From contig NW_024067939.1 of NCBI RefSeq assembly GCF_009389715.1, forward strand, positions 124,001-188,000: a stretch of DNA of 64,000 nt. The letters are read 5' to 3'. The notes under the pieces were generated by a model. That model saw only the letters and a list, made by a program, of their open reading frames with translations. It was not told where the DNA came from and did not search any database. A program made the translations under genes and the position numbers. Every line of letters starts with the position of its first letter. Position 1 is the first letter of the stretch. Positions 4,438 through 59,694 of this stretch are shown here, piece by piece. This stretch comes from Phoenix dactylifera (taxonomy: Eukaryota; Streptophyta; Magnoliopsida; Arecales; Arecaceae).

Positions 4438-4804
4438 CTAACAATTTCCGTCTCCAAAACCGATCATTCTGTCTTGGAGATCGTAAACTACCTCCTTTCG
4501 AATTTGCTGGAAGGTGCCCAATATGTCTTCTCCGTTGGTGGTAGTAACCAACGGAAGGCAGTAGTAGAGTTTGTTGTTGGATTTCAGTTTCATCGTTCTC
4601 TCGGTCATCGGGACAGCAGCAACTCCTTCAAAATGTAGTTCAATGGTAGGAAGGGACGACTCCTTGACATCAGCCGAATCATAGCATATGTCGTATATGT
4701 CTTCAGGAACTTCCCTGTATTTCGACGACATTGCTGATCGATAGATGTTCGTGAAGGGCGTATATACATTTTTAGTGGCCGTGCTGTCAAAAAATATAAT
4801 TATA
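4438..4804 (-). pseudogene. Aspartic protease (nepenthesin type), severed C-terminal part
   Basis: Read on the minus strand this gives the C-terminal domain of a plant A1 aspartic protease: an FDST segment where the second catalytic D-[ST]-G region would sit, then a Cys-containing stretch, a LHFEG motif, and the family ending ILGTFQQ...VVYDLQDRMIGFG close to the stop at 4438. The reading begins exactly where the left arm of an inverted repeat ends (4804). It is the natural continuation of the N-terminal part at 7049-6241, from which it is now separated by about 1.4 kb. About 70-80 residues that normally link the two halves are missing, and the second catalytic motif is not intact. I infer the displaced 3' end of one disrupted gene. 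Confidence 0.8.
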
Positions 4805-6215
4805 TTATACACAAGCTGCTGTAAAGAAATGGTGATCGCATAATTGCTGTTATTTGGTCGCTATTGTTGTCTCTCTTTGTGCTTCCGAGTTCTGTATCCT
4901 TCCGCGTCAAAAGACGATGGCTCGACCCCAAAAGTAGATAAAAATAGGTAGAGAGGCAGGGCAGAGCCTACGATATGAGGCATCGATGATATAATTTGGA
5001 TGGTGATTTGAAGTGCTTGGTCTCCATGTCTGAATTTATAAACAGCAGGTAGCTAGTCTTTCCACAGTCAGTATCTTGTAAAGTATTGGGCAAACGTCTC
5101 CCATGATTTTTGCTTTCTACCAACATTTATCGTCTTTCGTCACCAACTTTTCATCATGCTTGATAGCTTTTACGGCTAAGAAAGAACCAATGACATACAG
5201 CTACTCAGAAAGAATAGATTAAGAGATTTGAACTTCCCGTTTCCAGTATTGCTTTGATCTTAAAATTACACTGCTTGTGCCGATTACATGAATGCATGTC
5301 ACATCAACGCTTTTTTATTTGTAGTACTGGATGATACTAAAAGGGTTTCTGGAATAAATGGTCGAAGACTTGGAATTGTGGGGATGAAATGCCCAATTCT
5401 AATCCATGGTATTTTCAAAACCAGAGGCTAGTGTATCCCAGATGTTTCTAGAAACCGGGTTGTATTTTTCAATTCTTTGCCGCAACACCAAACGCAACAT
5501 TTCTATTCTAAGGTGGAGAAAGCATCAAGGTTCTTTCTATGGAAATGGACTAGAAGGACCAGCACATGCAACTTCTTCCTCAGAGTCTACCATGGAGCAC
5601 ATGCAACCTCACGACGAGAACATGATCTCCTTCGTGACATGAGCACCCCGTCTATAAATACGGCAAACGTCTTGATCTTCATCGCCCACCGAGTTTTCTC
5701 CTCTGGAAACTCTTTGCTCTTCGTCCATCATGGCTTCCCCTCTTACCAACCTATACTTCATCTGTCTCATCGCTTTCGTTTTCCGGTATGCCCATGGCAA
5801 TGCCGTAGGGCTTCACGAGTTCGACGTCCTGGGTTCCTGGAGCAACTACAGCTGCTCTTCCGGCGGGAACATCACCCGCGGCTTGCCGATAATCCATCGG
5901 CTAAGCCCTTGTGCTCCCCAGAAGCTGCGTCTCAACTTCACCAGCGAGCTCGACCGGCATTACCTTGACGATAAGTTGACGCTTGGAACTGACTCCAGAC
6001 TTTCCCGAGAGCGCAACTACCTCGTCGTCATTGGGCTGGGCACTCCCAAAAAGGATTTTCACGTGATGTTCGACACCGGCAGCAGCCTTACTTGGGTCCA
6101 GTGCGAGCCTTGCAGGAAGTGCTACGACCAAGCAGGTCCTCCACGTACCGTGCGATACCTTTCGCCTCCCAACCTTGCCGCGACCTTCCGTACCGTAGCG
6201 GCTGGACCCGACAAG
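4804..6215 (+). repeat. Left arm of inverted duplication (protease promoter and 5' half)
   Basis: This segment is the reverse complement of 6542-8776. It includes about 900 bp of upstream sequence, a TATA box and the first part of the coding sequence. The first stretch of coding DNA that I compared base by base is identical between arms, whereas the upstream parts differ by scattered substitutions and small indels (for example near 4890 versus 8690). The arm lacks about 775 bp present in the other arm between 7304 and 8077. Confidence 0.9.
5652..5660 (+). promoter_or_regulatory. TATA box of the left protease copy
   Basis: CTATAAATA lies about 70 bp upstream of the ATG at 5730, a normal plant spacing. 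The mirror copy is at 7120-7129 on the other strand, so the two promoters point at each other. Confidence 0.7.
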
Positions 6216-6218
6216 TAG
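5730..6218 (+). pseudogene. Aspartic protease N-terminal half, inverted truncated copy
   Basis: The reading has an N-terminal hydrophobic signal peptide (about residues 1-23, ending in YAHG), a propeptide region, and the N-terminal lobe with the first catalytic motif in MFDTGSSLTWVQC (about residues 112-124). It matches the minus-strand copy to residue 135, then an 18-bp deletion and further small changes alter the frame. It ends at 6218 in junction sequence, about a third of the usual length of roughly 430-480 residues. With one catalytic Asp and no C-terminal lobe it cannot be an active protease. Its transcript would be antisense to the other copy. Confidence 0.88.
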
Positions 6219-6541
6219 CCGCGCCAAGTAGCCGCGCTACTTGATGTTCGAGGACGAGCTTCCTCTGTCACCCAGCGCCAAGTAGCCGCGCGACGTTGCC
6301 ATCGGAAGGCAGTAGGAGAAAATCCCACCGTATCTCGGTGTCTGGGACAGCAGCGATTCGGGGCCCCTTCCAAGACCCCGGATTCCAGCGTATGCATCCC
6401 AGAGAGTTCCTTCTTGATCGACCCCGCACCCAAACTGGAATCCTGGAATCACGTCCGCTGATCCGAGAGTGAGGGTCTCGCTGGAGGAGGTTCCTTCAGA
6501 AGAGTCGTCGTCGAAGTACGTGATTTTATATTTGCAGTAAC
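6216..6541. other. Spacer of the inverted duplication with templated filler
   Basis: The 326-bp spacer holds the extra part of the minus-strand protease reading. Next to the junction, copies of CAAGTAGCCGCG occur at about 6212-6223 and 6226-6237, with the parental copy inside the gene at about 6280-6292. Such short local copies are typical of template switching during break repair. Confidence 0.7.
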
Positions 6542-7049
6542 CTTGTCGGGTCCGGCCGCTACGGTACGGAAGCTCGTGGCAAGCTTGGGAGGTGAAACGT
6601 ACCCTACGGTACGTGGAGGACCGAGCCGACTCGAATTTTGGATCTGCTTGGTCGTAGCACTTCCTGCAAGGCTCGCACTGGACCCAAGTAAGGCTGCTGC
6701 CGGTGTCGAACATCACGTGAAAATCCTTTTTGGGAGTGCCCAGCCCAATGACGACGAGGTAGTTGCGCTCTCGGGAAAGTCTGGAGTCAGTTCCAAGCGT
6801 CAACTTATCGTCAAGGTAATGCCGGTCGAGCTCGCTGGTGAAGTTGAGACGCAGCTTCTGGGGAGCACAAGGGCTTAGCCGATGGATTATCGGCAAGCCG
6901 CGGGTGATGTTCCCGCCGGAAGAGCAGCTGTAGTTGCTCCAGGAACCCAGGACGTCGAACTCGTGAAGCCCTACGGCATTGCCATGGGCATACCGGAAAA
7001 CGAAAGCGATGAGACAGATGAAGTATAGGTTGGTAAGAGGGGAAGCCAT
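6237..7049 (-). pseudogene. Aspartic protease (nepenthesin type), N-terminal lobe, gene broken after SSNIK
   Basis: A 270-residue reading with a signal peptide (MASPLTNLYFICLIAFVF), a propeptide, the first catalytic site DTGSS, a Cys-rich nepenthesin-type insert (CEPCRKCYDQ...), and the flap and following region through GCGVDQEGTLWD. It carries more of the gene than the plus-strand copy but stops in sequence created at the inverted-duplication junction (about 6240). The C-terminal domain is at 4804-4438 on the same strand, so the original gene ran 7049 to 4438. Such enzymes are secreted or vacuolar proteases, some involved in defence. This copy lacks the second catalytic Asp and is most likely non-functional. 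Confidence 0.88.
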
Positions 7050-7119
7050 GATGGACGAAGAGCAAAGAGTTTCCAGAGGAGAAAACTCGGTGGGCGATGA
7101 AGATCAAGACGTTTGCCGT

Positions 7120-7129
7120 ATTTATAGAC
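7120..7129 (-). promoter_or_regulatory. TATA box of the right protease copy
   Basis: On the minus strand CTATAAATA lies about 70 bp upstream of the ATG at 7049. It mirrors the box at 5652-5660. Confidence 0.7.
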
Positions 7130-7179
7130 AGGGTGCTCATGTCACGAAGGAGATCATGTTCTCGTCGTGAGGTTGCATG

Positions 7180-7497
7180 TGCTCCATGGTAGACTCTGAG
7201 GAAGAAGTCATCTTGCGGACCCCTGTTGCATGTGCTGGTCCTTCTAGTCCATTTCCATAGAAAGAACCTTGATGCTTTCTCCACCTTAGAATAGAAATGC
7301 ATCATAGTACGAGTACTATATATACATATGCATCAAAACACACCGGTCTTCCGATTCCAGCTCGGCTTAGGAATAGAAAGGCCAAAGTCGAACCAAACAA
7401 CTAGTTTGGTCATGTTTGGATTGAGTTAAACCTATCCAAATCGCGATATTGGACGATGCAGCACGTCTTCCTAAAAATAAAAGCTCCAATAAATGTC

Positions 7498-7534
<37 letters not shown>

Positions 7535-7890
7535 TATATAGAAATCGTCCAAAAAGAAATCGTCCGTAGTTGCTCCATGGTAGACTCTGAGGAAGACGTC
7601 ATCTTGCGGACCCCTGTCGTGAGGTTTCATGTGCTGGTCCTTCCAGTCCATTTCCTTAGAAATAACCTTGATGCTTTCTCCACCTTAGAAATGCATCAAA
7701 GTACGAGTAATATATATGCATCAGAACACACCAGTCTTCCGATTCCAGCTCGGCTTAGGAATAGAAAGGCCAAAGTCGAACCAAACAACTAGTTTGGTCA
7801 ATGTTTGGATTGAGTTAAACCAATCCAAATCGCGATATTGGAGGATGCAGCACGTCTTCCTAAAAATGAAAGCTCCAATAAATATCATAT
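7180..7890. repeat. Direct tandem duplication of about 320 bp in the protease upstream region
   Basis: 7180-7500 and about 7568-7888 are direct copies: both run from GCTCCATGGTAGACTCTGAG through GATTCCAGCTCGGCTTAGG to AAAGCTCCAATAAAT, with scattered differences. A (TA)n(CA)n tract (about 7498-7540) lies between them. Only the right arm has this duplication. Confidence 0.85.
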
Positions 7891-7950
7891 ATATATATAC
7901 ACATATATATACATATATATATACATATACATATATATATATATATACAC

Positions 7951-8030
<80 letters not shown>
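7886..8030. repeat. (TA)n/(ACATAT)n microsatellite
   Basis: About 145 bp of almost pure TA dinucleotide with ACATATAT interruptions. It can form cruciforms and is expected to be length-polymorphic. It creates meaningless Ile/Tyr-rich readings in several frames. Confidence 0.95.
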
Positions 8031-8033
<3 letters not shown>

Positions 8034-8929
8034 TTTGTGTGTCCGTCACTAAAAATATTTTATCTTGGGACAATGTTGCGTTTGGTGTTGCGGTAAAAAA
8101 TTGAAAAATACAACCCGGTTTCTAGAAACATCTGGGATACACTAGCCTCTGGTTTTGAAAATACCATGGATTAGAATTGGGCATTTCATCCCCACAATTC
8201 CAAGTCTTCGACCATTTATTCCAGAAACCCTTTTAGTATCATCCAGTACTACAAATAAAAAAGCGTTGATGTGACATGCATTCATGTAATCGGCACAAGC
8301 AGTGTAATTTTAAGATCAAAGCAATACTGGAAACGGGAAGTTCAAATCTCTTAATCTATTCTTTCTGAGTAGCTGTATGTCATTGGTTCTTTCTTAGCCG
8401 TAAAAGCTATCAAGCATGATGAAAAGTTGGTGACGAAAGACGATAAATGTTGGTAGAAAGCAAAAATCATGGGAGACGTTTGCCCAATACTTTACAAGAT
8501 ACTGACTGTGGAAAGACTAGCTACCTGCTGTTTATAAATTCAGACATGGAGACCAAGCACTTCAAATCACCATCCAAATTATATCATCGATGCCTCATAT
8601 CGTAGGCTCTGCCCTGCCTCTCTACCTATTTTTATCTACTTTTGGGGTTGAGCCATCGTCTTTTGACGCGGGAGCGGCAAGGATACAGAGCTCGGAAGCA
8701 CAAAGAGAGACAACAATAGCAACCAAATAACAACAATTATGTCATCACCATTTCTGTACAGCAGCTTGTGTATAATAGGAATTTTAGTTATTATTTAATA
8801 TTTCTTGGTTGGTTTAATAAAGAAAATAATATCTTAATTCAAATTTTTTCAGTTGAAAATTTTCGATTAATACTTCAAAATATTTCATTCAAGAAAAAAT
8901 TTCTTAATAAGCAAAAACATCTTTCCCTG

Positions 8930-9634: not shown

Positions 9635-10021
9635 AAATATTTAATACTAAAATATCATAAAAACCACGTTCATAAATTCTATTATGCAGGTGTAGGTTAT
9701 GCGTATACATGCATCCATCATGATACCAATCACAAGCAAATATAATCAAAATATAATTTAATTTTAAATTATACTTTCTTCTTACTTATCTAGATCATAG
9801 CACATCATACATATATAGGTGCAAAAATATTTATATCATACAGGTCGGCGTATAAGGATCCTTACACTTTATTGAAAACTTAGACAAACTAATCACCTAC
9901 CCTCACGGCGATCTATGAACCGAGATGCGCAGGACCTCGCTCAGCGTCCTCTCGTCCAACAAATTGTTTCCCTACAGAACCAAGTCATTATTAAAATTTA
10001 TCAAAGATATATGACAATCCA
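9635..10021 (-). repeat. Chromovirus 3' LTR, outer piece
   Basis: Homologous to about 47770-48155 of the other LTR (for example CATCCATCATGATACCAATC in both). It is interrupted at 10021 by the CACTA element and resumes at 14156. The outer roughly 1.0 kb of the LTR is missing. Confidence 0.88.
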
Positions 10022-10434
10022 CACTACCGAAAAAGTCGGTTTTACCGACGCTTTTTTGCCGACGCTTTTAAATCGGCAATTTTCAGTCTAGCGTCAAAAT
10101 TTGCCAACGCTTGTAAAAAGCGTCGGCAAAAGACGACGCTAATAAGCGTCGGTGTAGTCTCGGACCTAAGACGACGCTAAAAAGCGTCGTCGGAAGCCAA
10201 CGCACCAGGCTACATCCCAACCCTCTTCTGACCACCCCCGTCGGAAGCCACCCTCACACACCAGTCTCTCTCTCTCTCTCTACCTTCGAGCCTCATCTCT
10301 CTCATCCCTCCTCCCTCCTCTCTCCAGGTTTCCGTTTTTCCGGCCACCGCCCTCCTCTCTCTATTTAACTAGTAGTATTACCCACATCTCTCTCACCCAT
10401 TCGTCGTCTTCTCTCTCTCTCTAACCCATCAAAG

Positions 10435-10797
10435 GTGCCTTCTCATCATCATCGCCCCCCCTCCCTAACCCCCTCTGGATTCAAGAAGCAGAATGGCTCC
10501 GGCGATGATGTCTTCGCCCGCCTCTTCGCCGCCTCCTTGGATCCCGACTTCGCCCCTCTCTCCCCCGAACCGCGGATCCTCAAGTCCCGCCTCGTCGTCG
10601 GCGAGACCCTCTACGGCCTCTTCCTCCTACGCTCCTCCCCGACCCTCGCCGAGATCGCCGGCCTCGCCGGCTATGACTACGTTGTCGTCGACATGGAGCA
10701 CGGCTCTGGCGGCATCGCCGAGGCCCTCGCCTGCCTCCACGCCCTCGCCGCCGCCCGCACCCCAGCCATCCTCCGCCTTCTGCAGCTCTCCGCCACC
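10435..10797 (+). pseudogene. Captured HpcH/HpaI aldolase fragment
   Basis: The reading from 10435 includes [17 protein letters not shown] and [19 protein letters not shown], the N-terminal region of plant HpcH/HpaI-type aldolases (class II, metal-dependent, cleaving 2-keto-3-deoxy acids); the [12 protein letters not shown] stretch carries the metal- and substrate-binding surroundings of the family. It covers roughly the first third of such a protein and breaks off at about 10797, where plastid L15 sequence starts in another frame. A (CT)n pyrimidine tract and possible leader lie at 10265-10430. A chimeric transcript is possible, but aldolase activity is not. Confidence 0.8.
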
Positions 10798-10889
10798 AGT
10801 CAGGAGAAGGCCCGGCGTCCGTAAGGGCTTCGAGGGTGGACAGTTGCCCCTCTACTGTCGAATCTCCAAGCTCCGTGGAATTGCTGGAG
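10798..10889 (+). pseudogene. Captured plastid ribosomal protein uL15 exon fragment
   Basis: In the frame +1 relative to the aldolase the reading is [20 protein letters not shown] then SKLRGIAGG. This is the conserved glycine-rich region of bacterial-type (plastid) ribosomal protein L15. The sequence then reads GAG|GTATCA, a possible donor, and what follows does not match L15, fitting the gene's intron. Two substitutions in otherwise invariant positions (C and S in YCRISK) suggest relaxed constraint. Confidence 0.75.
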
Positions 10890-14155: not shown

Positions 14156-14939
14156 CCAAGACCCTTATTTGATCCTCTAAAGGGTCCTCTAAAATGTAGC
14201 ATCCCAGGACTATCTAGAGTCCTCAAAGCAATGATCTCCTCGGATCCAAGTGTAGAGAGAGAAAACATGAAGTGGGAAAGACTAAAGAGAAGAAGGAGAG
14301 AAGAATAATAAGGGAAAAGGGAAGAAAACTCCCTTTCTCTTTCTCTCTTCTTCCTTCTTCCCGACGGAAAGAGAGAGGGTGCTTGGCACCAGGCAGCCCA
14401 TGCATGGCCGGTGATGCCCCATGGTCGTCGACCATGGTGGTGTCGGCAGCCTGGCGATAGCCGGCCGAATGGAAGGAGGAAAAAGACCGAACAGAGGTTC
14501 GATTTCCCCCATCAATCCGGTGGCTTACCGGCCGTATTCCCAAAGAAATAATGGCCCAAAGATGAAGGAGAAGGAGGAGAAAGTGCTCACCTTGCCTCCG
14601 GCGAGCTTCTCCGGCAAGCCCGATGGCGAACAACCCAAGCTTCTTACGGTTCGTCTAGAACTCCAAATCTCTTTCTCTTCTCCTTTTTTTTTGAAAGGAT
14701 CTCTCGATTGGTGCCCTAGGAAGAGGGGGAGGAGGTCTTTTATGGAAGAGGATTGGCCCAGATATAGTACGGTTTGATCACCGTAAATCTCTTCTTCTGG
14801 TGGATTCGGGAGGAGGGGAAAAGAAAATTTGAAACATGGGAGGTAGAAGACTCCAATCGGGAGTCTCCCTCCCCCTTTTTCATGGGTTGGGCTGCCCTTG
14901 CTCAAAGGCCGACCCAAACCCAACATGTGGGCCTTTACA
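14156..14939 (-). repeat. Chromovirus 3' LTR, inner piece
   Basis: Homologous to 48155-48879, sharing GATCCTCTAAAGGGTCCTCT near the start and AACATGTGGGCCTTT at the end (LTR end CA at 14939). It carries about 76 bp near 14400-14480 that the other LTR lacks. On the minus strand the purine tract AGAGGGAGAGAA (about 14940-14951) abuts it as the polypurine tract. Confidence 0.9.
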
Positions 14940-16164: not shown

Positions 16165-17411
16165 TCACTCTTCAGTAGTGTTTGTATCATCATCATCAGA
16201 GAATGTTGTATTATGTCCACCTTTATCTTGAAGTCTTGCCTCAGCATCCAACCAATCTTTGAAGCAGAGAAGCATCTCAACCGTTTCGCCCGTCATCCTA
16301 CTTCTCTTTTCGTCAAGAACACGCCGACCTGCACTAAAAGCAGATTCCGATGCTACCGTGGACATCGGCACAGCTAAAATATCGCGTGCAATTGCAGACA
16401 TAATAGGATATTGATTTTTAACACTCTTCCACCAAGATAATACATCTAGACTCTCTATTTGATTTTCATCATATGCAGACTGAAGATCATTTCGTAAATA
16501 AAATTCTAGTTCACTACTTAAAGATGAAGAAGATGAAGATAAACTTGAAGCATGTGTGTATTTTCTCTATGCAATGAATGAAAAAATAGATGACGAACGA
16601 GAACTACTAGAAGAAGAAATAGAGCTTTGTACGGAGAATTTAGATCCACGAATTTTTTCATCATATATAGCATAAATATCATAAAGAAGTTGTTTTACCT
16701 CATTTTTAGCAGGTTCAGGATCTTGAATCATATTTTCACAGTATGCATTAAGTAAAATTAGCACGCCATTCAATTTAACTCTTGAATCAAATACAGCAGC
16801 TAAGTTATGCATAGAACATATCTTGTCCCAATACTCATTCCATTTAGATTCCATTTGTTCAATAATAGGCATTAAAACATCATCATATCTATGTTCTGCA
16901 AATTTTTGACTAATTATATATGCTTGTTGTAAACATGAACATGAAGTTGGATAATAAATACCAGAAAGAACATTGGTAGCATTATAAAAACTAAGCAAAA
17001 AATCTTCCAAAATTTTTCCTTTATTCCAATCAGTTTCAGTCAATGTAAAGCCTAATCCACGATCATTAATATATGCACTTAATAAGTTTTTATATGGGTA
17101 TGCATCATGTATCATGCTATATGTTGAGTTCCAACGAGTAATTACATCAAGTTTAAATTTTTTAAAACGTTTACCATGATTTATACATAGTTCCTTAAAT
17201 TCTTGAAGTCTTGATCTTGAAGCATGAATAAAAGAAACTGCATTTCTAATTTTTGAAATCACATCTTGAATCATGCCCATGCCAGCTTGAACAGAAAGAT
17301 TTAAGATATGACATGCACATCTAATATGCAATAAATTTCCATTTAACATGGGATGCAATGAGTCTTTTAATAATGTAAAAGCAGAATTATTATTAGATGC
17401 ATTATCAAAAG
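16165..17411 (-). pseudogene. hAT transposase, C-terminal two thirds (RICESLEEPER-like)
   Basis: From the Tat insertion at 17411 the minus strand reads FDNASNNNSAF, then HIRCACHILNLSVQAGMG (catalytic-domain CxxH region), a long RNase H-like/helical domain, and after a stop at about 16567 the C-terminal dimerisation domain with PMSTVASESAFSAGRRVLDE and SRMTGETVEMLLCFKDWLDA, ending in an acidic tail at 16165. Sequence between the stop and 16401 stays in frame, so a single nonsense change plus the retrotransposon insertion break the gene. Plant hAT proteins of this type include the domesticated DAYSLEEPER and RICESLEEPER lines. Confidence 0.9.
16402..16566 (-). other. hAT transposase linker downstream of a stop
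   Basis: An in-frame continuation (Ser-rich, then ELEFYLRNDLQSAYDENQIE) between the stop near 16567 and the dimerisation domain. Confidence 0.6.
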
Positions 17412-18226
17412 TGTTGCTGGTGGTCCAAACCGAGAACGATTGACACAGCGGTGTGAACGGGGTTCCGTCTGAGTTGTCTTGGTTGGTGTTGGTTACGCTC
17501 CACCTTCCACCGGAAAACCTGCGAGCAAGCCTCGCACCACCACTGGGGTAGTGGGGGCCCTCCGACGATCAAGTCAGAGGAGATTGGAGGAGAAGGAGAG
17601 ATAATAATCGCAAGCAAGAGAGTGCTCTGGAAGATATTGCTTACCCCCCCCTTCTCCCCCCAGCCGCATATATACCTGGCTGGGGGGTCTCTGAGGGGGG
17701 TTTGTCATCGTGGGCGCGGCGGAGTGGCCACTGACATGGCCGTTACAGGGCGTCGTGGAACAGCGCTGGGTACGGCCATGACAGGGCGTAGTGGAGTTCC
17801 GCTTTGTACGGCTGATACAGGAGATCGTGGAACAGCATCGGATACAGCCGTTGCAGGGAGTAGTGGAGCAGGAGGCCTCGGCGTGCCTCTGGGAAGCAGC
17901 CTGTCGTTATCAAGAGATCTCCGACTCGGGGTCGGAGTGCTGGATCAGGGGGCAGCCGACCCGGGGTCGGGCTGCGGTGCTGAGGATATCCGACTTGGGG
18001 TCGGATTGCTAGATTAAGGGGCAGCCGACTCGGGGTCGGGCCGCGAAGCCGAAGATGTCCGACTCGGGGCCGGACTGCTGGATCGAAGGGCAGCCGACTC
18101 GAGGTCGGGCTGTGGAGCCGAAGATGTCCGACTCGGGGTCGGATTGCTGGATCAAAGGACAGCCGTAGTCTTCATGGGCGCGCGTGCCGGTCACGTGGAG
18201 CATGGCGGCTTAGTTCCCCCGTAACA
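17412..18226 (-). repeat. Tat 3' LTR
   Basis: 815 bp and almost identical to 29177-29990. On the minus strand it holds a TATA box (TATATATG, 17667-17676) and an array of hairpin-forming CCGACTCGGGGTCGG variants (17924-18165). A polypurine tract (AAGTGGGGGGCTAC on the minus strand, 18227-18240) abuts its inner side. Confidence 0.95.
17924..18165. repeat. Tandem hairpin motifs in the Tat LTR
   Basis: A unit of about 70 bp, repeated roughly 3.5 times, contains two short inverted repeats of the form CCGAC-(TCGGG)-GTCGG. The same array is at 29688-29930. Each motif could fold as a small stem-loop in the transcript. Confidence 0.75.
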
Positions 18227-21131: not shown

Positions 21132-21308
21132 CCTCTTGTACCTTTCGTTGTCCTCTTTTTTTGTATGTCGGCATTTTGCCAAATTGTATGGGCCTTGGCC
21201 CTGAAACAATGAAAATTAATACAAGTCGAATGTTTCTTCATCTCGCTTTCGTCCTCCTCTTTTTTTCTTTTTAACTCTTGGCGGCGTCTTGCCGACTCCT
21301 GACTCTCG

Positions 21309-21775
21309 AAGTTCTTCCGGCCCTAAGCCAGGCATCCGAGGATTAGGCCTCAGGAAATTCTTCCGGCGCTAGGCCAGGCATCCGAGGGTTAGGCCTCAGA
21401 AAATTCTTCCGGCACTAAGCCAGGCATCCGAGGGTTAGGCCTCAGAAAATTCTTCCGGCGCTAAGCCAGGCATCCGAGGGTTAGGCCTCAGGAAATTCTT
21501 CCGGCGCTAAGCCAGGCATCCGAGGGTTAGGCCTCAGGAAATTCTTCCGGTACTAAGCCAGGCATCCGAGGGTCAGGCCTCAGGAAATTCTTCCGGCGCT
21601 AAGCCAGGCATCCGAGGGTTAGGCCTCAGGAAATTCTTCCGGTGCTAAGCCAGGCATCCGAGGGTTAGGCCTCAGGAAATTCTTCCGGCACTAAGCCAGG
21701 CATCCGAGGGTTAGGCCTCAGGAAATTCTTCCGACACTAAGCCAGGCATCCGAGGGTTAGGCCTCAGGAAATTCC
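21309..21775. repeat. 46-bp minisatellite, about 10 copies
   Basis: The unit contains CCAGGCATCCGAGGGTTAGG and AAATTCTTCCGG, with a few point differences between copies. It lies just beyond the antisense gene's 3' end. Confidence 0.92.
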
Positions 21776-22507
21776 GCTCGTTGGTCGGCCAAGGCTGGCG
21801 CAAGCCGAGGCGACCGGTCGGGGCTTCAGGCTAGTCTGGTCCCGGGATGGTCATCGGGTTAGCCTGGCATCCGAGGGCCGAGCCTCGGGAGATTCCGCTC
21901 GTTGGTCGGCCAAGGCTGGCGCAAGCCGAGGCAACCGGTCGGGGCTTCAGGCTAGTCTGGTCCCGGGATGGTCATCGGGTTAGCCTGGCATCCGAGGGCC
22001 GAGCCTCGGGAGATTCCGCTCGTTGGTCGGCCAAGGCTGGCGCAAGCCAAGGCGACCGGTCGGGGCTTCAGGCTAGTCTGCTCCCGGGATGATCATCGGG
22101 TTAGCCTGGCATCCGAGGGCCGAGCCTCGGGAGATTCCGCTCGTTGGTCGGCCAAGGCTGGCGCAAGCCAAGGCGACCGGTCGGGGCTTCAGGCTAGTCT
22201 GGTCCCGGGATGGTCATCGGGTTAGCCTGGCATCCGAGGGCCGAGCCTCGGGAGATTCCGCTCGTTGGTCGGCCAAGGCTGGCGCAAGCCAAGGCGACCG
22301 GTCGGGGCTTCAGGCTAGTCTGCTCCCGGGATGATCATCGGGTTAGCCTGGCATCCGAGGGCCGTGCCTCGGGAAATTCCGCTCGTTGGTCGGCCAAGGC
22401 TGGCGCAAGCCGAGGCGACCGGTCGGGGCTTCAGGCTAGTCTGGTCCCGGGATGGTCATCGGGTTAGCCTGGCATCCGAGGGCCGTGCCTCGGGAAATTC
22501 CGCTCGT
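21776..22507. repeat. 121-bp tandem repeat, about 6 copies
   Basis: The unit includes CGCTCGTTGGTCGGCCAAGG and CATCGGGTTAGCCTGGCATC. Copies alternate between two variants (CTGGTCCCGGGATGGTC and CTGCTCCCGGGATGATC), so a higher-order 242-bp unit is forming. Part of the unit (GCCTGGCATCCGAGGG) is shared with the 46-bp array, so the two arrays are related. The open frames in it are period artefacts. Confidence 0.92.
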
Positions 22508-23666
22508 TGGCCATGCGCCTGTCGCTTGCAGCCCGACGGGGTTTCTCCGTGGCCAGCTGCGATCGTGTTTCTCCTCTTCTCCAAGCGTTGCCTGGGGAAG
22601 ACCAGAAGGGCATTAAACGCTAATTGATGCGTTACCTGGGAAATCGGATCGCCAGTTGCTGCTTGCGAGGAGTGTCAGTTAAGCGGCCGCGATGCGCGCG
22701 TTCTTCGAGGCGGATGCGACCTGGGCGCGGGCGGAGATACGTGGACCTAGGGGTACAGGGCACCCGGAGTGTCCTGCACAAAAAATGCGATTAAGGAGAA
22801 TGACGCTTAGAAAATCGCGGGAAGATACGCCTTGAGAGCCGGATTGGCTCCGGATTCAATGCGCCCGCATTTATTGGAGCCACCCGTATCGGAACGACCG
22901 GGGGGCCGCAGTTTGGCTATAAATATAGGTGCAGGTGCGATGGAGCCTGCCAAGCCGGAGCTGTTCAAGTTGCCATGGATCGTGGACCTTCTCTCTGGCG
23001 CATGGCTGAGAGACTCCTGCCGAAGGAACGGGAGGCGCGCCCCTCGCGACTTCAACCAACTAGCCGTTTCATCTGGGATCAGCAAGGAGGGTCTCCCCGG
23101 CGGAACTCCGCTCTAGGCGTTTCATCCGGGATCACATCTCCCCTCCTTGAAGTTCAGCCTCCCGATTGAGCTCTGCACCAAACGCCTGATCCGGGACCGC
23201 GCCTCCATATGCTCTTCCCCCTCGTATTCCTTCTCTCCCCTAACACTGGGGAGGACCGGAATATCCCTTGGAGGTGGCGTTCCTCTGGAGGCAGCGGGAG
23301 CTTCGTCGGCGGCGGCTCCTCATCCTCTTCGTGGGGCGTGGATGGCGCCTCCGGTTGGAGGCAGTGTGGACTTCTCCTTCGTCCACTTCTTCTTCATCCG
23401 CGCCGGCTCTTCGTCTCTTTCGTGAGACGCCGATGGCGCCTCCGGTTGGAAGCACCCACTTCCGACGGGATTGCAACCGCTTCAGATGGAGGTTTCGGGA
23501 TCCCAGATCTTCAGCTCCTCGGAGTCTCCACCTCTTCTTTACTTTCTTTACACCCTAATTCCCCCCTGGGAATTCCTTGTAATCACACGAGCACGCCGTT
23601 GTAACCAGAAATTATTGAAATACAAAGCGTTATACATTTTTGAACTGTCTTTCTGGCATCGTCGTT
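22508..23666 (+). other. Tat 3' region; possible second antisense transcript
   Basis: No credible protein is seen. On the plus strand a strong TATA box (CTATAAATATAG, about 22918-22929) is followed by GC-rich sequence and, after about 700 bp, an AT-rich end (GAAATTATTGAAATACAAAG near 23608) resembling a plant polyadenylation region. A transcript here would be antisense to the element. Confidence 0.4.
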
Positions 23667-24305: not shown

Positions 24306-27300
24306 CTATCGCCCATTATCCGAGATGAGGACCCGAGGTACCCCAAATCGGACAATGATGTTCTTCTTCACGAACTTCCGGACTTGCACCTCCGTGATAG
24401 TGGCCAGCGGCTCTGCCTCCACCCACTTGGTGAAGTAGTCGATTGCAACAATCAAAAATTTCCGCTGAGCTGAAGCGACGGGGAATGGTCCGAGGATATC
24501 CATTCCCCACTGGGCGAAGGGCCAGGGTGCAGTGATTGGTGCCAAGGGGACAGAAGGGACTCTCTGGACGTTGGCGTGGCGCTGGCAGGCGTCACATTTC
24601 CGCACATGATCCTTTGAGTCCTCCAACAAGGTAGGCCAATAATAGCCTTGCCTCATGATCTTATGCGCCAAGGACCTAGCCCCCAGGTGCGATCCGCAGA
24701 TGCCTTCGTGGACTTCGCTGAGGGCGTAGGCCGCTTCCGAGGGGCGGAGGCACCTTAAGAGGGGGGCGGTGAACGAGGTCCGATACAGCCTCCCTTCATA
24801 GAGTACGTAGTGGGCGGACTTCATGACGAGTCGCCGAGCTTGATCTTCGTCCTCTGGAAGAATTCCTTCGGCGAGGTAGGCGACGAGCGGGTCCATCCAA
24901 GATGGCTCCGGATCAATCGCCATCACCGCTCCGGCCTCGCCGATGCTCGGGGCATCCAGGGTCTCCAGGTAGATCGCCCTCGACAAGTTGTGCGCGTCTG
25001 CGCCCACCAAGCGGGACAGCCTGTCGGCCCTGGCATTTTCGCTTCTTGGGACCTGCTGAATGTCAACACTGCCGAGGTCGGGAATGAGTGCTTGCACCTT
25101 CCAGACATAGCTCTGCATGGTCGGGCTCCGAGCCTCGAACTCCCCTCGGACCTGCCCGACCACCAGCTGGGAGTCGGTGAAGACCTTCAAACGCCGGATG
25201 CCGAGCTCCTTGGTGAGTTTGAGTCCTGTGACTAGGGCCTCGTATTCCGCCTCGTTGTTGGTCACTGGAAATCCGAACCTCAAGGCATACTCGGCTATCA
25301 CTCCATCGGGACTGGTAAGGACCAGCCCGGCCCCTCCACCTTCGGGGTTCGACGACCCATCAATGTGAAGCGTCCAGATTGGGAGGTCGAGGCTGGGTGT
25401 TTCCGGCGGCCTAGGTTCTGCCTCCTGCACAGTGCACTCAGCGAGAAAGTCCGCGAGCACCTGGGCCTTGATGGCGGGTCGGGGCTGGTAGCGGATGTCG
25501 AACTCACCAAGTTCTACTGCCCACTTCACCAGCCGTCCCGCATTCTCAGGATTGCTGAGGATCTGCCGCAGTGGTTGATCGGTCAAGAGGGTGACAGGAT
25601 GAGCCTGGAAATAGGGGCGAAGCCTCCTGGCCGCAGTGAGCAGCGCGAAGGCGATCTTTTCCGCCTTCGCATACCGCGTCTCGGCATCCCGTAGGACCCG
25701 GCTGATGTAGTACACAGGCTTCTGGAGCTTTGCCTCTTCCCGAACCAGTACTGCGCTGACTGCGGTTGGGGAGACCGCCAGATAGAGGTAGAGCATCTCC
25801 CCCTCTTGCGGCTTGGACAGCAGGGGAGGAGACGCCAAGTACTCCTTGAGTTGGTCGAATGCCACTTGACATTCGGCCGTCCAAAGGAAGTCTTTCGGAC
25901 GCTTCAACACCTTGAAGAACGGTTGGCAGCGTTCGGCCGATTTTGCCACAAATCGTCCGAGCGCGGCGACCCTTCCAGCGAGCTCCTGAACCTCCTTCAC
26001 TTTGGTCGGAGGGGACATATCTTGGATGGCCTTGATTTTGTCCGGGTTGGCCTCGATCCCCCGCTGGTTGACAATGAAACCGAGGAACCTCCCGGCCGAA
26101 GCACCAAAGGCGCACTTCGCTGGGTTCAGCTTCACGCGAAACTTCCGCAAGGTGGCGAAAGTCTCCTCCAGATCCGCAATGTGCTGGTCTGCATGGCGAC
26201 TCTTCACCAGCATATCGTCCACGTACACCTCCATGTTCCGGCCAATCTGCTCCTTGAAGATTTTATTGACGAGGCGCTGGTAAGTGGTGCCAGCATTCTT
26301 CAGACCAAAGGGCATTACCTTGTAACAGTACAGCCCCCGGTCTGTTATAAAGGCAGTTTTCTCCTCGTCCTGTGGAGCCATCATTATTTGGTTGTAGCCG
26401 GAGAAGGCGTCCATGAAAGACAGCAGCTGATAGCCGGAAGTCGCGTCGACCAGTTGGTCTATCCGTGGAAGCGGAAAGCTATCCTTGGGGCACGCCTTGT
26501 TCAGGTCGGTGTAGTCGACGCACATCCTCCACTTCCCGCTCGCCTTCCGGACAAGTACGACGTTTGCCAGCCACTCGGGGTAGCTCACCTCCCTTATGAA
26601 GCCTGCATCCAAGAGTTTGTCTACCTCCTGGTCGACCACCCGGATCCGATCCGGGGCACAGTGTCTCTTCTTCTGCTTTACTGGTCGGTGGGTCGGGTCG
26701 ACGTTGAGGGCGTGAGAAATGACCTCCGGGTCGATCCCAGGTACATCGGCCGCCGACCAGGCAAATACATCAGCATTGGCTCGGAGGAATTCCACTAACC
26801 TGAGCCGAGCTTCCGAGTCGAGGTTGGCACCGACCCGGACCGTACGGTCCGGGCGACCCTCCTCAAGGGGAACTTCGATCACACCCTCGGCCGGCTCCCC
26901 GTGCCGCAAAGCCACCTCGTCTCTGGCGTCAAGGGACTCGACGCTTAGGGCCTCCACGGGCTTCTTCCCTTTGAGAGTTGCTAGGAAACATTGCCGTGCG
27001 GTCGGTTGGTCACCTCGGACCTCTCCAATCCCGGCCGCCGTGGGGAACCGCATTAGCAAATGGTATGTAGAGACTACCGCGCGAAGGGCGTTCAGTCCGG
27101 GTCGTCCGAGGATAGCGTTGTAGGCCGAGGGAACACGGACGACCAAGAACCCGAGCCACACCGTGGCTTCTGCGGGTGCAACGCCCGCACTCACAGGCAG
27201 CTCAACGACACCTTCGGCCGAGATAGCGTCTCCAGTGAATCCTATGAGGGGGGTGGATGTTTTGTGCAACACTTGTCGGGACAAGCTCATCTTTTGGAAG

Positions 27301-29135
27301 GCCTCGTAAAACAAAATATCAGCTGAGCTTCCACTATCCACAAGAACACGCCTTACATCATAGTTCGCCATAGTGAGGGAGATCACCATAGCATCATCAT
27401 GGGGGGTCTGAACCCCCTTTACATCCTCATCACAAAAAGTGATTACATTTCCGACCCGCTGCCTCTTCGCGACGGCCACCCCTGATGCTTCCACCGAGCC
27501 CCCTGCGTTCCTCACAGGCCGAGAGCAGCCCCCAGTGATGGTGTGGATCACGCCCGCGACGGGTCGATTCTGCTCCCGAGGCTCCTGAGGGGCCGAGTCG
27601 GCCGGGCGCGGGTCTGCGGGGGGACGTCGGTCGTTTACATATCGACCGAGACGCCCTCGGCGGATGAGAGCCTCGATCTCGTCCCGAAGCTGGAAGCAGT
27701 CTTCGGTGTCGTGGCCGTGGTCTCGGTGGTACTCACAGTACGCTCGAGAGGGCCTCCTCCCAGGGATTTTCTTCATCTGCCTCGGGACCGGGAGGTTCTC
27801 CCGCCCCTTGACCTCCATAAGGATCTGGGCCCGGGGGGCCAGGAGTGGGGTGTACCGGTTGAAGCGTCGGTGCGGAGAACGAGGGCGTGGGGCGCCGTGG
27901 TTCCTCGCCGGTGACGGGCTTCTGCGCCGATGTTGAGGCATCGGGCTCCTCCTCTGGGGTGCCTCTTTTCGCCTTTTCTTCCCGAGCTTTAGAGGGGCCT
28001 CGGCGGCCTCCTTGTTCCGGTGGGCGGCTGCCTCCTCGGCGTCTGCATACTGGTTCGCCCGAGACAACAGCTCCGGGAAGCTCCGCGGCAGGCGTTTGTC
28101 CAGGAAGAAGGTGAGTCTGCCCTTCCGAAAGCCACGCTTCAGGGCTGAGAGAGCCACCTCCTGGCTCAGGTTCCGGACCTCCAATGTAGCCTTGTTGAAG
28201 CAGGTAAGGTAATCCCGCAGGCTTTCTCCCTCGTTTTGCCGGACATCAAAGAGGGAGTCGGAAACCAATCGCCGCCGGCTACTGACGGCGAAATGGCTGA
28301 TGAAGAGGCGAGTGAACTGGTCAAAGGACTGGATAGAGTCAGCCTCCAGGCCGGCGAACCACGCCCTGGCTGGGCCACGGAGGGTCGCCGGGAAGGCCTT
28401 GCAGAGGAGGGGATCTGATGCTCCATGGAGGAGCATAAGAGTCCTGAAACTCTCCACGTGATCCCGCGGGTCCGCCGCCCCGTCATAGGGCTCGATCGCC
28501 GGCATTTTGAATCCCGGCGGATTTGGGGTCCGCAGGATCCTCGAGGCAAGCGCCGGTTGGGAGGAGATCTCCAAGTCGGCGAAGAGATCTTTGGAGTGGC
28601 CCTTCAGGACCTGGAGTTGTCTGTGGAGATCGTCCACCCGCCGGTCCAGGGAGCGCGACCGGTGGGTGGGAGACAAGGAGCGGCGCGAGGGGGACCGACT
28701 GGAGTGCGGGCCCCTCGAGGACTGGGGGGTCGGAGAACGCGCCCGGGTCCGCCTCTCGTACCCCGCGCAGCTTCGATGAGAAGGTCCTGGCAGAATGGAC
28801 CGTGCTCGAGAACCTTCCTCGCGCCGGCGCTCCTCCCCATGGGAGAGGAAGGAGCGCGGGTTGAGGAAGACAGGTGAGCGCTCGGGGGGCAGCGGCTCCT
28901 GGGCCCGCTGTGGCGCTCGAGACATCACACCCTGCAGGTTCTGCACTACCTCCGCGAGGGTGCGAACCTGCTGGGCTAACTGGTCGAACTGAGCGGCTTC
29001 GACCATCTGAATGGGGGGTGGAATGGTGGAGTGTTGCTGAGAATGTGTTGGAGACGCAGCGGCCTCCCGGCCGGAGGCGCGAGAGGCCCCGCGACCGGAG
29101 GCATTGGAAGCTCCACGACCACCTCGCCGTGCCAT
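24306..29135 (-). CDS. Tat gag-pol polyprotein, truncated by a stop within integrase
   Basis: A 1609-residue open frame. Residues about 215-370 are a retrotransposon gag domain (RDHVESFRTLML...ARAWF); about 465-500 hold a Cys/His segment CEYHRDHGHDTEDC; about 595-690 the aspartic protease with VLVDSGSSADILF; about 830-1010 the RT with YVDDMLVKS; about 1090-1220 the first RNase H; about 1270-1400 a second RNase H (HIDGSSNPEGGGAGL... TDSQLVVGQV); about 1440-1609 integrase HHCC and the start of the core (DILGPFPV). Dual RNase H is a Tat feature. The frame ends at SDNGR where integrase normally continues, so this copy needs readthrough or helper integrase to insert. A start at 29135 is chosen because it lies about 40 bp after the 5' LTR. 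Confidence 0.95.
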   Translation of the reverse strand: MARRGGRGASNASGRGASRASGREAAASPTHSQQHSTIPPPIQMVEAAQFDQLAQQVRTLAEVVQNLQGVMSRAPQRAQEPLPPERSPVFLNPRSFLSHGEERRREEGSRARSILPGPSHRSCAGYERRTRARSPTPQSSRGPHSSRSPSRRSLSPTHRSRSLDRRVDDLHRQLQVLKGHSKDLFADLEISSQPALASRILRTPNPPGFKMPAIEPYDGAADPRDHVESFRTLMLLHGASDPLLCKAFPATLRGPARAWFAGLEADSIQSFDQFTRLFISHFAVSSRRRLVSDSLFDVRQNEGESLRDYLTCFNKATLEVRNLSQEVALSALKRGFRKGRLTFFLDKRLPRSFPELLSRANQYADAEEAAAHRNKEAAEAPLKLGKKRRKEAPQRRSPMPQHRRRSPSPARNHGAPRPRSPHRRFNRYTPLLAPRAQILMEVKGRENLPVPRQMKKIPGRRPSRAYCEYHRDHGHDTEDCFQLRDEIEALIRRGRLGRYVNDRRPPADPRPADSAPQEPREQNRPVAGVIHTITGGCSRPVRNAGGSVEASGVAVAKRQRVGNVITFCDEDVKGVQTPHDDAMVISLTMANYDVRRVLVDSGSSADILFYEAFQKMSLSRQVLHKTSTPLIGFTGDAISAEGVVELPVSAGVAPAEATVWLGFLVVRVPSAYNAILGRPGLNALRAVVSTYHLLMRFPTAAGIGEVRGDQPTARQCFLATLKGKKPVEALSVESLDARDEVALRHGEPAEGVIEVPLEEGRPDRTVRVGANLDSEARLRLVEFLRANADVFAWSAADVPGIDPEVISHALNVDPTHRPVKQKKRHCAPDRIRVVDQEVDKLLDAGFIREVSYPEWLANVVLVRKASGKWRMCVDYTDLNKACPKDSFPLPRIDQLVDATSGYQLLSFMDAFSGYNQIMMAPQDEEKTAFITDRGLYCYKVMPFGLKNAGTTYQRLVNKIFKEQIGRNMEVYVDDMLVKSRHADQHIADLEETFATLRKFRVKLNPAKCAFGASAGRFLGFIVNQRGIEANPDKIKAIQDMSPPTKVKEVQELAGRVAALGRFVAKSAERCQPFFKVLKRPKDFLWTAECQVAFDQLKEYLASPPLLSKPQEGEMLYLYLAVSPTAVSAVLVREEAKLQKPVYYISRVLRDAETRYAKAEKIAFALLTAARRLRPYFQAHPVTLLTDQPLRQILSNPENAGRLVKWAVELGEFDIRYQPRPAIKAQVLADFLAECTVQEAEPRPPETPSLDLPIWTLHIDGSSNPEGGGAGLVLTSPDGVIAEYALRFGFPVTNNEAEYEALVTGLKLTKELGIRRLKVFTDSQLVVGQVRGEFEARSPTMQSYVWKVQALIPDLGSVDIQQVPRSENARADRLSRLVGADAHNLSRAIYLETLDAPSIGEAGAVMAIDPEPSWMDPLVAYLAEGILPEDEDQARRLVMKSAHYVLYEGRLYRTSFTAPLLRCLRPSEAAYALSEVHEGICGSHLGARSLAHKIMRQGYYWPTLLEDSKDHVRKCDACQRHANVQRVPSVPLAPITAPWPFAQWGMDILGPFPVASAQRKFLIVAIDYFTKWVEAEPLATITEVQVRKFVKKNIIVRFGVPRVLISDNGR

Positions 29136-29157
29136 TACGATCGCTCTGAGATCAGGG

Positions 29158-29176
29158 CCCTTCCTCTAGCGCCAAC
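29158..29176 (-). other. Tat primer-binding site
   Basis: Directly inside the 5' LTR the minus strand reads GTTGGCGCTAGAGGAAGGG, the position and style of a Tat-lineage primer-binding site. I did not assign the tRNA. Confidence 0.7.
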
Positions 29177-29990
29177 TGTTGCTGGTGGTCCAAACCGAGA
29201 ACGATTGACACAGCGGTGTGAACGGGGTTCCGTCTGAGTTGTCTTGGTTGGTGTTGGTTACGCTCCACCTTCCACCGGGAAACCTGCGAGCAAGCCTCGC
29301 ACCACCACTGGGGTAGTGGGGGCCCTCCGACGATCAAGTCAGAGGAGATTGGAGGAGAAGGAGAGATAATAATCGCAAGCAAGAGAGTGCTCTGGAAGAT
29401 ATTGCTTACCCCCCCTTCTCCCCCCAGCCGCATATATACCTGGCTGGGGGGTCTCTGAGGGGGGTTTGTCATCGTGGGCGCGGCGGAGTGGCCACTGACA
29501 TGGCCGTTACAGGGCGTCGTGGAACAGCGCTGGGTACGGCCATGACAGGGCGTAGTGGAGTTCCGCTTTGTACGGCTGATACAGGAGATCGTGGAACAGC
29601 ATCGGATACAGCCGTTGCAGGGAGTAGTGGAGCAGGAGGCCTCGGCGTGCCTCTGGGAAGCAGCCTGTCGTTATCAAGAGATCTCCGACTCGGGGTCGGA
29701 GTGCTGGATCAGGGGGCAGCCGACCCGGGGTCGGGCTGCGGTGCTGAGGATATCCGACTTGGGGTCGGATTGCTAGATTAAGGGGCAGCCGACTCGGGGT
29801 CGGGCCGCGAAGCCGAAGATGTCCGACTCGGGGCCGGACTGCTGGATCGAAGGGCAGCCGACTCGAGGTCGGGCTGTGGAGCCGAAGATGTCCGACTCGG
29901 GGTCGGATTGCTGGATCAAAGGACAGCCGTAGTCTTCATGGGCGCGCGTGCCGGTCACGTGGAGCATGGCGGCTTAGTTCCCCCGTAACA
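29177..29990 (-). repeat. Tat 5' LTR
   Basis: 814 bp. The minus-strand TATA box is at 29431-29440 and would drive gag-pol. The hairpin array (29688-29930) lies upstream of it, in U3. Apart from one base (near 29280) and a C-tract, it equals the 3' LTR. Confidence 0.95.
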
Positions 29991-30776
29991 AAAAGTAATA
30001 GACATAATTTTATCATTAATATTATATGAACATGCAGTTTGATAAATGACATTTGAAATTTGTTGCCCAGAATGTGGAAAATCAAAAGCACGAAAAGCAA
30101 GAATACGTTTATTTAATTGCCAATCATTATCAATATAATGCGCAGTAATGGCAATAAAACAATTACTACCTACAGATGCTGACCAAATATCAGAAGTTAA
30201 TGAAATTTTTACATTTAAAGTAGAAAGTGTTTCAATTAAACTTTGTCTCATTGCTAAAAAGTTAGTCATAGCTACTCTTCTAAATGTACGCCTACTAGTT
30301 CTTTTGTAAGCAGGTTGTAGGTTTAATTGAACATATTCTTCAAAATTAAAAGATTCACATAAACTAAAAGATAATTCATCCTTAACTATCCATTTTACAA
30401 GTACTTTTTTTTGATTTTCTTGATTATATGCAAAATTACCTACAAGTAATCCCCCTTGTATATTAAGGGTACTTTGAGTTTGAGCATGAGAATCATGCAT
30501 CCTATGACTCTCTTGATGTCTTTTTAAATGGCATGTTCCCCCACTACTACTACAACTATAAAGTTTGGCACATTTTTTACATTTTGCTTTCCAGACTCCA
30601 TCAACCATAACTCTATCAAATTCATTCCATACAGCACTAGTCCTCTTACGAGAAGAGGTTTGATCTTCACTCGGTTCACTAGTTCTAGAGGAACTATGAA
30701 CATGGGGTTGGGGATTAGTTTCTTCTCCCTCAGAAACAGGAGGAATGCCAAAATGACTTTCCTCAAAAGATGACAT
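29991..30776 (-). pseudogene. hAT transposase, N-terminal part with BED zinc finger
   Basis: The start at 30776 opens MSSFEESHFGIPPVSEGEE. A BED zinc finger follows (VWNEFDRVMVDGVWKAKCKK, then CAKLYSC...GTCHLKRHQESH), then the N-terminal part of the catalytic region with SLTSDIWSASVGSNCFIAIT (a catalytic-Asp-like SDIW) to MSITF. The Tat insertion lies immediately after. The reading rejoins 17411 in frame when one TSD copy is discounted. The open frame itself is free of stops. Confidence 0.92.
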
Positions 30777-31190
30777 ATCTAAATTGATGAATTCAAAAAA
30801 TAAAAACTAACCACAAGGAGGAATTGAGTAGAGAGTCGGAGGGCAGAGGCAGAGCCGAGATTCTGAGCTTCCTCTTGTGCTCTCAACAGGAGTGACCTTC
30901 TCTTCTCAACAGGAACCTCCTCTTGTGTAGCACTTGAACACTTGCTAAATGCAAACTAAAAATTAAATTGCTAGAAGAGCACTTTAGAAGAGAGAAATAA
31001 TAGTAGTAGAGAAGGAGAGAATAGTTGGTTTGGTGTGGTGAGAATGAGGAAGAAAAGGGGTATTTATAGGAGTCCAAAAAAAATTTTCCCAAAATACCCC
31101 TCAATTTAGCCTTTTTGAACTGTTGGGAGGGGCATTTTTGAAAAAATCCCAAAATAGCTGTTGGAAACGGCTATTTTCTCCCCCCCTCTC
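30777..31190 (-). other. hAT 5' leader region
   Basis: A non-coding AT-rich leader between the BED-finger start codon and the GC-rich subterminal repeats. On the minus strand a TATTTATAGG-like sequence lies near 31061 (plus strand CCTATAAATA read in reverse), and may not be functional. Confidence 0.4.
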
Positions 31191-31380: not shown

Positions 31381-31766
31381 CTTGCTTGATAGCTATTATT
31401 GTAAGCAAACTCTATTAGTGACAAATGACTATCCCACGCTTTTTCTAGATCCATGACATAGGCTCTCAGCATGTCTTCCAAAATTTGGATAGTTCTTTCT
31501 GACTGTCTATCGGTTTGGGTGTGGAAAGCTGTGCTGAAGCTCAATTTGGTTCCAAGAGCTTTATGAAGACTCTTCCAAAACTGTGATACAAATCTATTGT
31601 CTCTGTCTGACACAATAGTAATTGGGACCCATGCAACCTCACAATCTGCTCTACATATAAACCTGCCAATCTCTCTAAGGAGAAACCGACTCTAAACGGC
31701 AAAAAGTGTACTGACTTAGTTAGCCGGTCAACAATTACCCACACGGCATCATTACCTCGTAGGGTT
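31381..31766 (-). pseudogene. Chromovirus integrase core fragment
   Basis: Reads [20 protein letters not shown] and, after a frame change, [20 protein letters not shown] and [20 protein letters not shown]: a Ty3/gypsy integrase core with two of its catalytic acidic positions. It is bounded by the hAT TSD on the left and the SIRE TSD on the right. Confidence 0.88.
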
Positions 31767-33462: not shown

Positions 33463-33509
33463 AGGTGCTCAAGATTAATTATTGATCTCACGATCAAGAG
33501 CCAAAGATC

Positions 33510-41209: not shown

Positions 41210-41222
41210 AAAAGGGGGAGAT
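41210..41222 (+). other. Polypurine tract of the SIRE-like element
   Basis: AAAAAGGGGGAGAT directly precedes the 3' LTR start TGATGACCC. Confidence 0.9.
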
Positions 41223-52455: not shown

Positions 52456-52965
52456 GATACTCAAGTTAGCAGGTCATGATGGGAAGAAGAGGCAGTACAT
52501 TGCATAAATCCAAAATTATATGTATGGTTAGTAATTGATACGTTATATCCTAATAAAACCTCGGCGAACCTTGGTTTAAAGTGTTTTGCTATTCAGAGTT
52601 ATAATCCCCAGCTCATATATATTTATTAGGATACATCAATGCGCATCTTCTGGGAATCATAATACTTTGGTTCTCTAACATTATTTCATATACACATATT
52701 TACAAACTATGTGCCTCATTAGTGACCTCTAGGATTCACCCCAGCCAGCAATTAATCCCGTCAGCAGTTTTTACGCATCCAACTTTTTGATGTTATCTTA
52801 CTTGCTGCACTTCATCTAATACAAGTGTTAGAGAAGTGCTAAACATTAATCTTGTACCTGGTAAACTAACAGCAATCTGACTGGAAAAAATCAAATCAAT
52901 GTCCAACCACAAGACAGCTGCAATGTAAGATGCAATAGAAAGAGTAACACAGGGGGACAACTTGC

Positions 52966-59408: not shown

Positions 59409-59694
59409 CTGTATTCAAAGAAAAAGTTTTTAGTGAAGTATAAAAGAAGTGGTCACGTGTGTAGACATGCACACACTAGACATACATATACACATGTGAG
59501 GAGCAAAAGAAAATAAATTGAAAATTTTCTGCAGAATGATCAAGTATGTGTTAATAACATATTATCTGCATATGATTATGTTCTTATACATCATTTCTTT
59601 CCCCCTACCAAGGAATTATAGGAGTGAAATACTAGACAAAAAAAAATTTCAGACTAATGAAACATTAGACATGTACCTCCACTTAATTTCAATT

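Follow-up and report, generated by a model that had tools for sequence, protein, structure and literature searches.

A date palm aspartyl protease gene split by its own promoter and 5′ half copied in inverted orientation, with a mosaic of identity between the arms

A protease gene interrupted by its own inverted copy

What becomes of a gene when its own promoter and first half are copied backwards into it, and can the resulting inverted repeat be read as a record of how it formed and of what it may do? We address this question for a protease locus of the date palm, Phoenix dactylifera, within a window of 64,000 nucleotides with 43% GC (NCBI RefSeq assembly GCF_009389715.1, contig NW_024067939.1, positions 124,001 to 188,000 of the forward strand); by "window" we mean this whole stretch, and coordinates are given within it. 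By its domains, the gene is a plant A1 aspartyl protease of the At5g10770/nepenthesin type. Its 5′ and 3′ parts lie on one strand and in order, with the inverted copy between them (Table 1).

BLAST of the window against itself resolves the repeat into three collinear inverted blocks—i.e. 4803-5501 with 8777-8072 (97.7% identity), 5498-6139 with 7299-6640 (97.0%), and 6135-6215 with 6622-6542 (88.9%). A preliminary description of this DNA had proposed arms of 1.4 and 2.2 kb around a 326-bp spacer, sizes that prove exact, and the same TATA box (TATAAATA) and start codon that it placed in both facing arms are located here. Across the window, 1137 inverted 21-mer pairs connect the two arms, while the remaining pairs fall within an AT microsatellite of the right arm (132) or elsewhere (36). 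The pairing of the arms is far from chance. That description also attributed the break in the gene to its own promoter and 5′ half copied in reverse, which is correct because the 3′ end of the gene, on the minus strand, falls outside the left arm. Beyond these claims, the present analysis adds the mosaic identity of the arms, the template-switch junction, and the nature of 776 bp found only in the right arm.

The upstream end of the 3′ remnant coincides with the outer joint with the inserted copy, and 7 of 8 homologues used as tblastn queries end in this remnant (~4773-4441). The domains TAXi_N and TAXi_C are both present, on separate pieces of the broken gene. Arithmetic from the alignments, with the homologues P0003 and P0006 as rulers, gives ~45-50 residues absent between the minus-strand pieces, and the absent stretch is where homologues carry the second catalytic Asp motif (DSG). 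No open frame holds both catalytic Asp motifs, the region of the second being missing by spacing; the DST triplet that immediately precedes the 3′ remnant is misplaced by about five residues. The 5′ piece is unlikely to yield a working protease, since it corresponds to the N-terminal lobe without the second Asp. The frame of the left arm leaves the reading frame of the family after a 22-nt loss at 6135.

In a protein search, the nearest protein besides the window's own is P0002 (61% identical over 68% of the query), and no near-identical relative is found except the left arm's own product (P0001). Among the matches listed (the best 120 of 420), the named homologues are flowering-plant aspartyl proteases, many of them called At5g10770-like, and the best of these is 50% identical over 62% of the query. 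A PDB search returns distant pepsin-like proteases only. Within the window there is no second copy of the protease: all tblastn matches of eight homologues (E ≤0.1) fall in the arms, the spacer, or the 3′ remnant.

A junction that suggests template switching

The inner junction carries short repeats of the gene itself. On the gene strand, the native 17-mer GCGCGGCTACTTGGCGC at 6275-6291 is repeated at 6221-6237, and a 13-nt part of it occurs again at 6212-6224. From there CTTG leads directly into the inverted copy, with 6205-6215 matching 6552-6542. Replication-based template switching, as in the models of fork stalling and template switching (FoSTeS) and microhomology-mediated break-induced replication (MMBIR), leaves back-slips of this kind and then a change of strand at short homology. 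The inner junction looks like serial template switching, and an origin of the inverted copy by this route is likely from its sequence.

The course of events that we favor would begin with DNA synthesis switching templates inside the minus-strand protease gene and recopying the 17-mer and the 13-mer, an arrangement that is seen directly and from which we infer the enzymology. At the 4-nt homology, synthesis would then have crossed to the opposite strand and run backwards through the gene's own 5′ half and promoter, before rejoining the gene at a point further down, with the loss of ~45-50 codons. The ends of the arms would later have diverged by 6-14%, and two long blocks between them would have been made identical again through arm-to-arm gene conversion, as the mosaic described below suggests. 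The outcome is a dead protease and two convergent copies of one promoter.

We also considered a transposon with terminal inverted repeats, such as a gene-capturing Mutator-like element. By eye, the ~20-nt flanks of the outer ends of the arms share no direct repeat that could be a target-site duplication, and on the left this flank belongs to the 3′ part of the gene itself; this candidate was rejected on both grounds.

Mosaic identity of the arms

Alignment of the arms yields 19 substitutions over 1413 columns, with 7 in the first 122 columns, 9 in the last 64, and 3 in the 1227 between. These borders were chosen after seeing the data, whereas a test on the lengths of substitution-free runs is independent of them. 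The two longest runs span 550 and 502 aligned columns (runs pass over indels); when substitutions are placed at random (n = 200000), the longest run is reached 284 times and the sum of the two is reached 0 times. Compared directly, 409 coding bases differ at a single position, which borders the 22-nt gap and is absorbed in the gapped alignment. A single C/T difference between the arms stands at 5649, near the left TATA box.

The arms also differ in length, and the left arm is without 776, 7, 18, and 22 nt of the right arm, which together make up the difference of 823. The 776-bp gap has CATT at its joint. The right-arm promoter contains tandem units that agree at 297 of 310 positions, and over the stretch shared with the left arm, the left sequence equals unit 1 at 97 of 97 positions and unit 2 at 88 of 94. 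The 22-nt and 18-nt differences read as losses on the left, because the former breaks the left frame and the 18-nt piece also occurs in the second promoter unit of the right arm.

At the inner end, 8 of 26 residues differ between the arms, and comparison of these 8 with P0002 finds the left in agreement at 3, the right at 2, and neither at 3. Such a difference is what might be expected if the left arm were a second, already diverged paralogue that lay in inverted position and had its middle later homogenized by the resident gene. We consider this history improbable: the junction runs straight from the gene into the gene's own sequence at the 4-nt homology, and the eight tblastn homologues reveal no other copy in the window. 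Derived residues seem to lie at the ends of both arms. With both arms apparently altered at their ends and a middle that is almost the same, the best fit, somewhat more likely than not, is an older inverted duplication homogenized by arm-to-arm gene conversion.

The main rival to conversion is a single recent event, in which error-prone synthesis with template switching would have freshly copied the left arm from the right one, skipping 776, 7, 18, and 22 nt and leaving point errors close to the switches, with no gene conversion involved. The serial switches at the inner junction, the CATT at the 776-bp skip, and the left-side losses of 22 and 18 nt all agree with such a copy. It is weakened by the inner-end residues, as at least 3 left agreements with P0002 against the right arm have P = 0.018 if all changes occurred on the left, and by the extreme contrast it requires between an error density of 6-14% at the ends and the near-absence of substitutions between them. 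We therefore hold this rival to be unlikely, although it deserves to be taken seriously.

Several observations nevertheless weigh against the favored account. Most substitutions lie no more than ~80 nt from an indel or junction, as error-prone copying leaves them. The alternative that all changes occurred on the right is kept (P = 0.089 for at least 2 right agreements with P0002), the set used for polarizing is one homologue at 61% identity and 8 residues, and the preferences of homologues between the arms are mixed (n = 120 family members). The 18-nt indel sits within a substitution-free block and must therefore postdate conversion. Finally, the clean block at 4925-5474 is upstream of the promoter and outside the predicted transcript; identity does not track the transcript, and there is accordingly no sign of selection for a hairpin.

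An assembly artefact was weighed as well, as palindromes are hard to assemble and consensus mixing could give identical blocks inside diverged ends. This is very improbable: the arms differ by 19 substitutions and four indels, single-copy gene sequence makes up the spacer, the gene continues in place with its 3′ end, and the window contains 0 N.

Table 1. Coordinates of the inverted repeat and of the pieces of the protease gene.
Feature	Position	Strand	Description
Left arm	4803-6215	+	1413 bp, inverted copy of promoter and 5′ half (self-BLAST, arm alignment)
Right arm	6542-8777	-	2236 bp, native promoter and 5′ half (self-BLAST)
Spacer	6216-6541	-	326 bp, single-copy gene part (to ~6238) and junction repeats; putative hairpin loop
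Inner junction	6212-6237		Native 17-mer and its 13-nt part repeated, then CAAG/CTTG into inverted copy
Protease 5′ part	7049-6237	-	270 codons; TAXi_N, E 4e-44; first catalytic Asp motif DTGSS; stop created at junction
Protease 3′ remnant	~4790-4438	-	TAXi_C to stop codon; Pfam E 7e-14 on 4438-4800
Left-arm truncated frame	5730-6218	+	162 aa; start of TAXi_N only, E 3e-12
TATA box, left arm	5653-5660	+	TATAAATA
TATA box, right arm	7126-7119	-	TATAAATA
Start codons (ATG)	5730; 7049	+; -	Left arm; right arm
Right-arm promoter tandem duplication	7180-7538 / 7571-7929	-	
AT microsatellite in right arm	7878-8030	-	
Right-arm-only 776 bp	~7296-8071		Within duplicated promoter segment and AT repeat

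Hairpin and silencing potential

What could be made from such a locus was modeled on an assumed transcript that runs from 5685 (~32 nt past the first base of the TATA box) to the mirror position 7094. The predicted fold contains 451 uninterrupted pairs (5685-6135 with 6644-7094), and its minimum free energy is -1268.5, compared with -503.0, -511.0, and -532.4 for three mononucleotide shuffles. Four AATAAA-like hexamers were searched for, and none occurs between the arms; the first is met at 7476 on the plus strand (searched from 6140) and at 5319 on the minus strand (searched from 6640). These features agree with the earlier proposal that read-through would form a hairpin; long double-stranded RNA of this sort is known to trigger gene silencing. 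The hexamer scan is weak, because plant poly(A) signals are loose; it permits read-through without proving it.

Of the distinct 21-mers of the transcribed left arm, 431 of 511 recur in the right arm, and for the whole left arm the count is 1124 of 1393. The two read-through RNAs would be almost one molecule; either could fold on itself or pair with its counterpart. The locus has near-perfect inverted gene arms close enough for joint transcription, as do the loci of the PAI, VIM, and Mu killer kind. Hairpin RNA and small interfering RNAs (siRNAs) from the locus are plausible, since the assumed transcript would form an uninterrupted 451-bp helix. If either promoter is active, a self-complementary read-through transcript with this perfect stem would be expected; the stem would likely be diced into 21-24-nt siRNAs, which would first silence the locus itself. 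A putative action of such siRNAs on relatives in trans is possible.

We give the explanation as a whole—i.e. a break by template switching, later conversion between the arms, and a self-complementary read-through transcript if a promoter is active—about an even chance. Its functional half competes with the view that the structure is as described, with both promoters inactive and neither hairpin nor small RNA produced. This silent relic is a strong contender that falls just short of evenly balanced. The coding result is dead, and perfect inverted-repeat transgenes forming hairpins are methylated in the repeat and the adjacent promoter and silence themselves (PMC9263138). The observed-to-expected ratio of CpG is 0.66-0.74 in the upstream blocks vs 0.89-1.03 in the gene pieces, which fits methylation and does not show it; as a trace of methylation, this ratio is not informative. 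By contrast, the TATA box and ~480 bp around the start are identical in both arms, which speaks against a relic.

A further and rather doubtful extension is that the hairpin drives itself and is kept perfect by conversion, so that the locus, without decaying towards a microRNA gene, would go on supplying siRNAs directed at the protease family to which it belongs. On this reading, it would have been transcribed from birth, because the promoter is inside both arms. Rfam models at gathering score have 0 matches in the window and no tRNA is found, and a known RNA gene, including a microRNA gene, was rejected as an identity for the locus.

Comparison with known systems

Other repeats of note in plants include snapdragon SULF, monkeyflower YUP, rice Lgc1, and soybean CHS, and miR163 is reportedly grouped with the birth of microRNAs by inverted duplication.

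The closest layout among the loci compared may be sought in Arabidopsis. At VIM4-VIM2 of the accession Cvi-0, the first exon and intron are 100% identical around a 50-bp non-palindromic center, and read-through yields siRNAs mostly from the stems (PMC13213937). The present locus is similar in its inverted gene arms and short center. However, VIM4-VIM2 is head-to-head and arose by deletion and inversion between two full-length paralogues, and its siRNAs and targets have been demonstrated (PMC13213937), whereas here a single gene is interrupted by its own copy and the promoters are convergent. PAI4-PAI1 is likewise an inverted gene duplication with arms that can pair, and it silences relatives, but it is tail-to-tail and its silencing has been established (PMC13213937).

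Mu killer of maize is also a partial inverted duplication, with two copies of a promoter-bearing end (TIRA) together with the 5′ part of a gene, mudrA; it differs in being derived from a transposon, which it silences (PMC3440606). In plants that silence, antisense RNA comes from a promoter inside the Mu killer locus, and plants that fail to silence have sense read-through of it from a flanking gene (PMC3440606). In poplar, a single inverted pair of ARR17 fragments forms a hairpin that its authors link to 24-nt siRNAs (PMC9636151).

Several Dicer-like proteins process the transcripts of proto-microRNA loci, which are inverted repeats (PMC13128112), and inverted duplications have been proposed to suppress close members of their family (PMC1820830). 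The date palm locus resembles these as a young inverted gene duplication and a possible source of a long hairpin (PMC13128112, PMC1820830). It differs in a far longer stem, perfect over 451 bp, and in matching no Rfam model. Palindromes of the willow W chromosome are, like this one, plant palindromes, and parts of them are reported to be kept alike by arm-to-arm conversion, as proposed here; by contrast, they span tens of kilobases, hold whole genes, and are sex-linked, and conversion was tested there with a second species (PMC7023750).

Among the matches listed from the open-licence literature, no title concerns an siRNA locus made of an aspartic protease inverted repeat. Each element of the present locus is already known; what is distinctive is the combination of a self-copy inside the gene, a convergent founder promoter in both arms, and the identity mosaic.

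Other features of the window

The remainder of the window holds transposable elements and parts of other genes. Direct repeats at 17409-18226 and 29174-29990 (99.6% identical) flank a gypsy-type gag-pol frame (24306-29165), and together these are probably a young long terminal repeat (LTR) element. It seems to lie inside a hAT transposase gene, with hAT domains at 16165-17568 on one side and, on the other, a frame at 29955-30806 that resembles the front part of hAT by eye and has no Pfam match. Two adjoining tandem arrays fall within this gypsy-like interval, at 21308-21774 (46 bp x 10.2) and 21740-22510 (121 bp x 6.4). A second pair of direct repeats of ~1.7 kb (31766-33448 and 41222-42929, 98.0% identical) has a copia-type gag domain just inside (33486-34469), which probably marks a copia LTR element. 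Further direct repeats, dispersed and with 87-91% identity, connect the 9.6-14.9 kb region (9639-10021, 14156-14936) to the 47.8-48.9 kb region (47774-48876).

An exon-like frame at 10369-10824 has an HpcH/HpaI aldolase domain (E 1.5e-9) and may be a gene fragment, because inspection by eye of the following 3 kb reveals no other aldolase exon. Minus-strand frames with WHIM1, WSD, and PHD domains at 52891-59414 are probably parts of one chromatin-regulator gene.

Significance of the locus

Plant microRNAs have been proposed to be born from inverted gene duplications, among other origins, and such duplications are proven to give rise to silencing alleles. At the date palm locus, both arms retain the founder promoter, the broken gene still stands in its place, and a scar of how the repeat formed remains readable. 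If small RNAs arise here, it would become testable whether conversion between the arms holds a young hairpin locus in a perfect, siRNA-making state; if they do not, the locus would be a clean example of a gene killed by its own backward copy.

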